Positions 5,147-26,683 of a stretch of DNA of 64,000 nucleotides are shown piece by piece. Both the position numbers and the translations under genes were made by a program. Below the pieces are notes generated by a model. That model saw only the letters and a program-made list of their open reading frames with translations, did not search any database and was not told the DNA's origin. Every line of letters starts with the position of its first letter. Positions within the stretch are counted from its first letter, which is position 1. The stretch is from assembly GCA_022821145.1 (NCBI GenBank), contig JAJEEE010000041.1:1-64000 (forward strand), written 5' to 3'. The DNA is from Acidobacteriota bacterium (GTDB lineage Bacteria; Acidobacteriota; Terriglobia; 20CM-2-55-15).

Positions 5147-5924
5147 TCGGGATATGCCCCGGAATGTCGCCCCCAGAATGCCCCGGCTGTCAACGGCTTT
5201 CGTGCGAGCGTGTCAGCGCAAGATATAGCCTATATCACACATATAAGACAGTTAATGGGACACATCGGGACAGCTTCGCACGTCGATGGATACGCCTCTA
5301 ATCCACATCGATCCCTGCGGGAACACTCGGACCGGCGCCCGGCGCCGGAGACCCCTTCGCCGCCTCGACGGCCGTCCCGGCCCGCGCGCCGCCCGTCTCG
5401 ACGTCGCCGCCCTCCACGGCCGCCAACCCCATGACGGCCGCGGCGAGGCCCTCGGAGTCGATTCCCTCCTGGCCCAAGCCCCTTTCGCCGTTGATAATCG
5501 CCACCGGGGCCGGTGGACGCTGTGGGTCAGGCCGTCTTCGGGCTGTCCAAGCCGAGGTGGGCGCGCCGGGGCGTCCTCGGCGGCGGCGGCGTCCATGGGC
5601 CTCTTCCAGACGGCCGTCCCGGCCGATCCGGCCAGCCGCCTCCCCAAGCCGTTCGACGGCTTCCGATTCCAGGCCGGTGTAAGATGGATCCCGGATGGAG
5701 GTCCTCGGTCTCGCCGACTACGGAGTCCAGGTGCGGGAAGACGTTCCCGGAGATGCCTCGAACGACACGAAAGACGTTCAGAAACAGCCCGGACAGTGTG
5801 CCGCCGTACTATGCCGAATGGTGGGTGAAGCGAGGGAACGCGACACCGCGTGTAAATATAAGTGACTCTCTGTCAATCACTTATGAGGACTCCTTGCCGG
5901 ACAAGGCGGCCTCCGGGCCGCCGC
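5147..5924. other. Gene-poor stretch, possible decayed coding remnants
   Basis: Nearly 780 bp without a convincing gene. A minus-strand frame (5298-5504) has coding-like Ala/Gly/Glu composition but no recognised motif and no clear start, and the plus-strand ORFs look like shadows. The stretch between an integrase relic and a repeat array probably represents degraded mobile-element DNA. The last 25 bases (GACAAGGCGGCCTCCGGGCC...) resemble the end of the third repeat unit downstream. Confidence 0.4.
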
Positions 5925-6734
5925 GTCAGCACGACGAGATCTCGCAAACGGCCGACACCGTGGACGAAGAGATCATTTTCTTGGACTGACGCCTCGGCTC
6001 CGCCTCGTTGTCCAGTCGCGGCGAGGAACGCCGCGCCTACTATTGGAGCGTCCCGCCAGGTGGCGGCGAAACACCGAGCGCCATGCCAACCCACGGAAGA
6101 CATGCGAAACATCGTCCCATTCCCCATGGTACCGGCGGCGTCCGTCGCCGCGTCAGCAAGACGAGATCTTGCCAGGGGCCGACACCGTGAACGAAGAGAT
6201 CATTTTCTTGGACTGACGCCTCGCTGCGCTCGTTGTCCAGTCGCGGCGAGGAACGCCGCGCCTACTATCGGAGCGTCCCGCAAGGTGGCGGCGAAACACC
6301 GAGCGCCATGCCAAGCCACGGAAGACATGCGAAACATCGTCCCATTCCCCATGGTACCCGCGGCCTCCGGGCCGCCGCGTCAGCAAGACGAGATCTTGCC
6401 AGGGGCCGACACCGTGAACGAAGAGATCATTTTCTTGGACTGACGCCTCGGCGTCCGCCTCGTTGTCCAGTCGCGGCGAGGAACGCCGCGCCTACTATTG
6501 GAGCGTCCCGCAAGGTGGCGGCGAAACACCGAGCGCCATGCCAACCCACGGACGGCATGCGAAACATCGTCCCATTCCCCATGGTACCCGCGGCGTCCGT
6601 CGCCGCGGGTGGACAAGGCGGCCTCCGGGCCTCCGCGTCAGCAAGACGAGATCTTGCAGGGGCCGACACCGTGAACGAAGCGATCATTTTCTTGGACTGA
6701 CGCCACGCTGCGCTCGTTGTCCAGTCGCGGCGCT
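5925..6734 (+). repeat. Tandem array of ~227-bp structured repeats (3 full copies plus 1 partial)
   Basis: Units begin with GTCAGCA(A/C)GACGAGATC at 5925, 6152, 6379 and 6637. The first two are 227 bp, the third is 258 bp with a GGTGGACAAGGCGGCC-type insertion, and the fourth breaks off at the asnS stop codon. Each contains the core GAAGAGATCATTTTCTTGG (GAAGCGATC in the fourth), then TTGTCCAGTC. The three full units then carry a hairpin CGCGGCG-AGGAA-CGCCGCG, and they end in a second hairpin that differs between copies by paired changes (GCGGCC-TCCG-GGCCGC in one, GCGGCG-TCCGT-CGCCGC in others). The length is not a multiple of three and the frame shifts between units, so it is not coding. Related copies occur at 26.3-26.57 kb, so this is a dispersed family. 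Confidence 0.85.
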
Positions 6735-8036
6735 TCACGGCCTCAGTCGATAGAGCATCCGCGGGAACGGGATCGTCTCCCGTACGTGGTCGAGGCCGCA
6801 GATCCAGGCGACCACGCGCTCGACGCCCATGCCGAAGCCGCCGTGCGGCACCGAACCGAACTTCCGCAGATCGAGGTACCAGTCGAAGACCTCCCGGTCG
6901 AGGCCGTGTTCGTCCAGCCGTTGGGCGAGAAGCGCGTAGCTGGATGTCCGCTGCCCGCCACCGATGATCTCGCCGTATCCCTCCGGCGCCAGCACGTCCA
7001 GGCACAGCGCGACCTCCGGCCGCTCCGGATCGGGTTCCATGTAGAAAGCCTTGATCGAGGAGGGGTAGCGGTGGACGATGACCGGCCGGTCGAACGCCTC
7101 GGACAGCAGGGTCTCGTCCCCGCCGCCGAAGTCGCCGCCCCACTCGATATCGGACCCCTTTGTCCGCAGGATGTCGAGCGCCTCGTCGTAGGCGATTCTC
7201 GGGAATGGCGGCGCCACGGCTTCCAGCGGCGCCGGGTCGCGTTCCAGCGTCTTCAACTCGTCGAGCCGCCGTTCCAGGACGCGGCCGACGATGTGCGTCA
7301 CGAAACGCTCGGCGAGGTCCATCACGTCGTCGACGGTCGCGTACGCCACCTCGGGCTCCACCATCCAGAATTCCGTCAGGTGGCGGCGGGTCTTGGATTT
7401 TTCGGCGCGGAACGTCGGACCGAAGTTGTAGACCCTGCCCAGCGCCATGGCCGTTGCCTCGCTGTATAACTGGCCGGACTGGGTAAGGAACGCCTCTTCC
7501 TCGAAGTAGTCGACCGGGAACAGCGTCGTGGTGCCCTCGCACGCGGCGGGCGTCAGGATCGGCGTGTCGCACAACGTGAACCCGTCGTCGTCGAGGAACT
7601 CGCGCGCGGCGCGAACCACTTCGTGCCGTATTCTCAGGATCGCCCGTTGGCGCGTCGAGCGCAGCCACAGGTGCCGCTTGTCCATCAGGAACTCGACGCC
7701 GTGCCCCTTCGGCGTGATCGGGAACGCGTCCTCGGGCGGAATGATCTGCAGGGGCTCGATCGCGGTCACGCTCATCTCGTAACCGCCCGGGGCGCGCTCG
7801 TCGGCGCGGACGGTTCCCGTGATCGTCAGCGACGATTCGTGGGTCAACTCGCCGGCCGCCGCGAACGTCGCCTCCGGCACGGACTTCTTGAATACCACGG
7901 CCTGAAGGTATCCCGTTCCGTCGCGCACGATCAGGAAGCGCAGCTTGCCGCTCGACCGCTTGTTGTGCAGCCAGCACCGGACGGTGACCTCGCCGCCGAC
8001 GTGGCTTCCGATGTCTTCGATGTAGGGGGTTGTCAT
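6735..8036 (-). CDS. asnS: Asparaginyl-tRNA synthetase
   Basis: A 433-residue class IIb aminoacyl-tRNA synthetase that charges tRNA-Asn in the cytoplasm. The N-terminal OB fold (about 15-100) binds the anticodon. Class II motif 2 appears as [17 protein letters not shown] and motif 3 as [11 protein letters not shown] near the C-terminus. The long ORF to 9731 is an artefact of GC-rich sequence. The true start is ATG 8036 ([10 protein letters not shown]), which fits the family length. The stop codon sits at the edge of the tandem repeat array, so the transcript would run straight into the repeats. It is divergent from the TPR protein gene at 8094. Confidence 0.95.
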
Positions 8037-26243: not shown

Positions 26244-26295
26244 GGGAACGGTTTCGTCGGGCCTGTGGAGCGAGGGTGAAGCCGGGAGTTGGAAG
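26244..26295 (+). repeat. 52-bp direct repeat, copy 1
   Basis: A segment from GGGAACGGTTTCGTCG to GAAGCCGGGAGTTGGAAG. It recurs with a few substitutions at 26411-26462. The pair flanks the hairpin-bearing repeat core at 26301-26376 inside the exporter locus. Confidence 0.7.
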
Positions 26296-26300
26296 GCAGT

Positions 26301-26376
26301 GAAGAGATCATTTTCCTGGGCTGACGCCGCGGCTACCGCCGCGTTGTCCAGCCGCGGCGAGGAACGCCGCGGCTAC
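26301..26376 (+). repeat. Dispersed repeat core, forward copy
   Basis: It matches the core of the 6-kb array: GAAGAGATCATTTTC, then GGGCTGACGCC, TTGTCCAG and a hairpin GCCGCGGCG-AGGAA-CGCCGCGGC (9-bp stem, 26351-26373). The stem is longer than in the 6-kb copies but keeps the same AGGAA loop. Confidence 0.75.
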
Positions 26377-26410
26377 TCATGAAGAGAGCGCCCGGTTCGT
26401 GTCACGAGTC

Positions 26411-26462
26411 GGGAACGGTTCCGTCGTGCCGGGAGATCGAGGGTGAAGCCGGGAGTCGGAAG
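26411..26462 (+). repeat. 52-bp direct repeat, copy 2
   Basis: Second copy of the 26244-26295 segment (GGGAACGGTTCCGTCG ... GAAGCCGGGAGTCGGAAG). Confidence 0.7.
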
Positions 26463-26493
26463 ACATGGAAGACGTCGCCGCAAGCCCACTTGG

Positions 26494-26565
26494 ACCCGCG
26501 GCGTTCCTCGCCGCGGGTGGACAACGAGCGGAGCGAGACGTCAGTCCAAGAAAACAATCTCTTCA
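26494..26565 (-). repeat. Dispersed repeat core, inverted copy
   Basis: The same element on the opposite strand. A perfect 10-bp hairpin ACCCGCGGCG-TTCCT-CGCCGCGGGT (26494-26518) is followed by GGACAACGAG and CAGTCCAAGAAAACAATCTC. With the forward copy it fills much of the 471-bp gap between the two exporter genes. I see no gene in that gap. Confidence 0.75.
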
Positions 26566-26683
26566 CTCTGCCCGAACGTCACCCCCGGCCATCGGCCCCG
26601 CGGCTACTTGCGAAGAGTCCGCCAGAAAAAATGACACCACGGTACGTCCATCAACGAACTGACAGGACGCCACACTAGCAGCG

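Follow-up and report, generated by a model that had tools for sequence, protein, structure and literature searches.

A tandem array directly 3′ of asnS (asparagine-tRNA ligase) is probably a BIME-2-like cluster of a REP-type, non-autonomous repeat family that spread by transposition and whose arrays were built by recombination. The array lies in the 64,000-nucleotide stretch of acidobacterial DNA analysed here (the window), and the family, which is very likely a REP/BIME-type dispersed repeat, is lineage-specific, being confined to one genus among the genomes searched. With it, the known range of REP/BIME-type repeats would come to include an acidobacterial (Vicinamibacteria-like) genus, where the unit is unusual in having two hairpins.

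Tandem Repeats Finder reports one strong array at 5906-6599 (period 227, copy number 3.0, matches 93%), and alignment agrees with it on the ~227-bp tandem array of three full units and one partial unit running into the end of asnS that a preliminary description had proposed. The partial fourth copy (6617-6732, identity 93%) reaches the stop codon of asnS, which lies at 6735-6737 (minus strand); asnS itself (6735-8036, minus strand) encodes a protein 94% identical to the same-genus orthologue. The window contains a 30-mer of the repeat unit four times, where shuffling predicts 0.00 occurrences, and chance is thereby excluded. The boundaries first given, 5925-6734, were too narrow for an array that is otherwise real: it extends nearer to 5879-6750, with unrelated DNA to its left and the 3′ end of asnS to its right, and is made of alternating inverted copies of a two-hairpin core in a BIME-2-like arrangement. 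An AT-rich perfect hairpin (ATAAGTGA...TCACTTAT) is found immediately to the left of the array at 5858-5884, and a degenerate version of this left junction lies beside another copy of the element (L074:2146).

The 227-bp unit is an inverted pair, consisting of a minus-strand core, a long spacer, a plus-strand core and a short spacer with a CAAG/CTTG hairpin. The minus-strand cores, of type A with a GTAG head, occupy 5959-6046, 6186-6271 and 6413-6501 (108.2, 99.9 and 107.1 bits with the covariance model R1), and a fourth at 6670-6750 (53.9 bits; sequence read directly) has its 5′ half, hairpin 1, replaced at the asnS stop codon. On the plus strand, a complete inverted copy of type B (GTAC head, loop TCCGT) lies at 6578-6665 and scores 53.9 bits (E of about 1e-14), having been absent from the training set of R1. 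Aligned to this copy, the inverted copy of unit 3 (6352-6392, plus strand) shows a 28-nt deletion removing hairpin 1, and that of unit 2 (6127-6165, plus strand; a weak model match of 15 bits) a 30-nt deletion removing hairpin 2; at the left end of the array, a further plus-strand copy (5899-5935; model match 5879-5953, 18.9 bits) is truncated on its 5′ side. The long spacers between facing 5′ (GTAG/GTAC) ends, at 6047-6126, 6272-6351 and 6502-6577, belong to repeat family D1. The small CAAG...CTTG hairpin, read directly at 6157-6171 (plus strand) in the short spacer between A and B 3′ ends, is repeated in units 2, 3 and 4 and altered in unit 1, and the short spacer bearing it is conserved in other clusters too. 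A second locus in the window holds a single inverted pair between convergent genes (26294-26571), with a type A half at 26294-26382 (minus strand, 98.2 bits) and a type B half at 26486-26571 (plus strand, 92.5 bits).

The AGGAA-loop hairpin (GCGGCG-AGGAA-CGCCGC) is kept in all three full units, as had been described, at 6014-6038, 6239-6263 and 6469-6493, and is truncated in the fourth, partial unit. On the other hand, the compensatory change that had been read from the terminal hairpins of the window (GCGGCC/GGCCGC versus GCGGCG/CGCCGC) arose from a comparison of non-homologous hairpins, the first of the core with the second. Unit 2, after its loss of about 30 nt, keeps hairpin 1 (GCGGCG/CGCCGC, loop TCCGT); unit 3, after its different 28-nt loss, keeps hairpin 2 (GCGGCC/GGCCGC, loop TCCG), and the GCGGCC/GGCCGC of unit 1 is hairpin 2 as well. 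Because the unit 2 and unit 3 hairpins are not homologous, the comparison within the window is uninformative on selection. Tandem growth to 227-bp arrays may have proceeded by recombination or slippage between short direct repeats, and the same process could have produced the deletions in units 2 and 3.

A search of the genome with one unit gave 97 matches, which covered both orientations and often only part of the unit. The shared core was recognised after these matches were read in one orientation, and R1 was built on it. The core is an imperfect palindrome of about 75-88 nt with two hairpins (hp1 and hp2), in the order GTAG, GTAC or GGAC, hp1 (NCGCGGCG-TTCCT-CGCCGCGN), CTGGACAA, hp2 and GCGTCAGTCCAAGAAAA.GATCTCTTC; the hp1 loop TTCCT reads AGGAA on the opposite strand and is therefore that of the AGGAA-loop hairpin of the window. 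With R1, the 4.18-Mb genome contains at least 147 copies at E<=0.001, a lower bound from 150 scored candidates. Many contigs of this genome end inside arrays, and so the real arrays are likely to exceed the assembled ones in length or number.

The preliminary description had looked to copies beyond the window and to significant covariation, and both are found. In 52 copies aligned by sequence only, the count of double-change cells was 45, compared with 12.6 for shuffles and 0-24 for controls with slid partners; in 150 copies fitted to the model, an alignment hence biased towards its structure, there were 186 against 62.5 in shuffles and far fewer in the slid-partner controls. These are counts and not probabilities, since the copies are related rather than independent. 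Alternative pair types recur in both the window's own genome and a second genome of the same genus, the covariation being strong in hp1 and weaker in hp2. The informative pairs of the 52-copy alignment are that between the fourth GTAG base and its partner (GC, CG and AU), the CG/GC pair adjoining the loop-closing pair, GC/AU in the outer stem of hp2 and GC/CG inside hp2. At two positions of hp2, most copies have a G-A mismatch and a minority have a standard pair. GTAG is present in 69 of the 150 copies, and its fourth base is paired with swaps between G and C (GC in 74, CG in 64). The proposal that structure is kept while sequence varies thus holds across the family but not for the evidence originally drawn from within the window, which came from the misaligned hairpins.

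Covarying stems that include some G-U pairs, in an array directly 3′ of asnS, would suit a structured RNA transcribed by read-through from asnS or from other genes and serving as a 3′ UTR stabiliser, a terminator or a small RNA, a reading that we consider highly improbable. The clustering at gene 3′ ends suggested earlier is not borne out: of the clusters with both neighbours called, 13 lie between convergent genes, 19 between same-strand genes and 14 between divergent ones, which is close to the 37:90:43 of the background, and the 14 between divergent genes speak against an RNA, as do copies in both orientations side by side. Furthermore, the array has no terminator-like or promoter-like site, no Rfam family matches, and the sister species has no element downstream of asnS. 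A 3′-end or terminator role was rejected for lack of orientation bias and of terminator-like sites. Conserved pairing together with neutral gene orientation is explained by selection on an RNA no better than by selection on a DNA hairpin that mobility requires, and the array is unlikely to have a specific function for asnS. Clusters are extragenic (59 of 64 outside called genes, by a home-made gene caller that is reliable for stop codons and less so for starts).

The layout of the copies is that of BIMEs. In 57 of 64 cases a copy is oriented opposite to its neighbour, and the usual arrangement is an inverted pair with fixed spacers, mostly 3-7 or 39-48 nt where 3′ ends face each other and mostly 74-104 nt where 5′ ends do. 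BIME-2/REP of Escherichia coli (units Y and Z2) are similar: numerous imperfect palindromes lie outside genes, alternate in orientation, are separated by fixed spacers of short and long lengths and repeat in tandem, with two sequence types per pair and arrays that vary between relatives. Unlike them, the acidobacterial core is about twice as long, has two hairpins and is unrelated in sequence, carries GTAG in under half of its copies and is not found flanking a RAYT gene. The usual REP core is 20-50 nt in length, and the acidobacterial core is longer.

REPs are extragenic and numerous, often lie in alternating BIMEs, and border RAYT genes (PMC2817692, PMC8266576); what defines the GTAG REP super-family is a GTAG that is conserved and left unpaired (Di Nocera et al. 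2013, PMC3733652), a terminus seen in >90% of copies in most described families (PMC3733652). The acidobacterial repeat resembles GTAG REPs (PMC3733652; Nunvar et al. 2010, PMC2817692) in that type A starts with GTAG followed by a GC-rich stem-loop, stem bases have complementary alternatives, and dimers and clusters contain structured spacers. It differs in that the A and G of GTAG are paired in hairpin 1, the G swapping to C with its partner, that the tag is present in 69 of 150 copies rather than in >90%, and that no REPtron was found for the element. The general features of REP/BIME repeats are all seen here, namely more than 100 copies per genome, a compensated palindrome, extragenic position and alternating, regular spacing, whereas of the marks of GTAG REPs, a conserved unpaired GTAG is lacking, and a RAYT gene flanked by the repeat was not found in the own and sister genomes. 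Because the REP features of the literature are present except for RAYT linkage, we file the family as a REP/BIME-type variant and not as a member of the GTAG-REP family. The first impression that it resembles no named repeat family is accordingly right as far as Rfam, the GTAG-REP tag and a linked RAYT are concerned, and wrong in that its layout is that of REP/BIME.

Among 121 genomes searched, the element occurs in many copies in its own genome and in one sister species of the same genus; the other 119 relatives, up to class level, yielded none. A scan of 84,980 species genomes with an exact pattern matched two acidobacterial MAGs only, 'Acidobacteria bacterium p16x33bins.48' (the same-genus genome) and 'Vicinamibacteria bacterium p16x33bins.71', the latter with several alternating copies and one flank 99% identical to a contig of the own genome. 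No plasmid relatives were found. Comparison of the two species identifies sites that are empty in the same-genus genome (469 bp versus 8 bp, L063/L184; 402 bp versus 4 bp, L079/L198), where gain and loss are not separable, as well as a site differently filled in the two genomes (L069/L193) and several copies conserved in place (for example, L073/L088).

A chromosome-structuring role, which has been proposed for E. coli BIMEs, would have the copies kept by selection as sites bound by gyrase, IHF/HU or another protein. The BIME-like layout, the extragenic position and the copies conserved in place between species are in line with such a role; restriction to one genus, sites that vary between two species and arrays that decay by deletion are not, and it would leave the spread of copies unexplained. 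We regard it as improbable as the primary explanation; it could be a secondary role.

Spread by transposition would instead make the copies non-autonomous mobile elements, as we infer them to be. Their hairpins, when single-stranded, could be the substrate of an HUH transposase (IS200/IS605-like, of TnpA-REP/RAYT type), which would act in trans on single-stranded DNA and join it beside GTAG-like sequences. One single copy (L248:6947) lies directly after a TGTAG stop codon, and the corresponding copy-free site (L174) has TGTAG too, in this one case. The own and same-genus genomes each encode one Y1/RAYT-like gene (PF01797), which is collinear and well conserved between them (96% DNA identity) and matches the REP-associated tyrosine transposase model NF047646 of NCBIfam at E 2e-15, below the curated cut-off. 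The RAYT-like protein is encoded at L081:4873-5541 (minus strand), and a PDB sequence search with it found no relatives. With search filters off, no copy of the element was found in the flanks of the gene in either genome, where MAG contigs break at arrays and a RAYT locus flanked by the element may be missing from the assembly.

That the mover is a RAYT-type enzyme has, in our judgement, about an even chance. GTAG in only 69 of 150 copies, the unlinked position of the RAYT-like gene and the presence of its homologues in family members without the repeat stand against such an enzyme. The RAYT/REP system does exist in the lineage, given RAYT genes flanked by GTAG hairpins in the same class: in two such genomes (L095 and L097), RAYT genes are bordered on both sides by inverted GTAG-tagged hairpins, apparently as ordinary REPtrons, and these hairpins are similar in design to the core. 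TIRYT/TIRtron repeats of Acidobacteria and RAYT-like genes without REP flanks have also been described (PMC3733652); the present case shares the phylum and a RAYT-like gene without REP flanks, and differs in that the element was not found at the RAYT-like locus. A repeat unlinked from its supposed transposase makes the family a case for testing the idea that RAYTs mobilise REPs.

Part of the family may have moved as MITEs. A subset of singletons lies inside ~255-bp elements with terminal inverted repeats (TIRs) CTAGTGTCGTGTCAC...GTGACACGACACTAG and one hairpin core each (L229, L231, L233, L238, L243, L246; C30:28589-28845; C79:47743-47993), resembling MITEs with IS-like TIRs and pointing to a different, MITE-type mover for this part. 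If this held for the family as a whole, the core would be the cargo of mini-elements moved by a TIR-recognising DDE transposase, and the A/B pair would itself be a MITE with long TIRs and the ends GAAGAGATC; inverted copies of GAAGAGATCATTTTCTTGGACTGACGCC do form the outer ends of A/B pairs. Two further singleton backbones exist, however (L233:3108, L235 and L050; L236, L237 and L239), and since at least three different backbones carry the core, it is not tied to one TIR. Most copies, the window array included, show no TIR beyond the core: none is common to the array clusters, a few of whose sites share an outer motif near AGCGTGGGAA, and for the A/B pairs tested neither a common TIR beyond the core nor a target duplication was found. 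Nor was a transposase gene bounded by such ends noticed in an unsystematic look at the genome. We consider a MITE origin of the family unlikely. A broader reading, which we advance tentatively as unlikely, is that the repeat represents a two-hairpin REP class of Acidobacteriota in which pairing is kept rather than the GTAG tag. The class would be carried by several mobile backbones, namely BIME arrays and mini-elements of at least three kinds, one kind having clear TIRs. The enzyme that moves it in trans would be either RAYT-like, unlinked and inherited vertically, or a so far unknown transposase.

Arrays of the BIME-2-like family break assemblies and coincide with a break in synteny beside asnS. 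The same-genus genome (L140) has asnS followed directly by a convergent coaE without an array, and the two genes overlap convergently there (L140:2790-2830). In the own genome, coaE is on a different contig from asnS, about 300 bp from another array, and in the five outgroup loci tested it was not found within 1.5 kb of asnS. Both broken ends of the asnS-coaE synteny (window 6735-6750; L054:1670-1700) carry the 12-mer TGAAGCGCCGCG. A different dispersed repeat, of about 150-170 bp, was seen on contig C84 of the own genome (L245:3549-3715); the loci checked contained no tRNA and matched no Rfam family. Within ~0.7 Mb of the same-genus genome, this repeat recurs with 85-91% identity at six or more places (L203, L181, L157, L170, L185 and L193).
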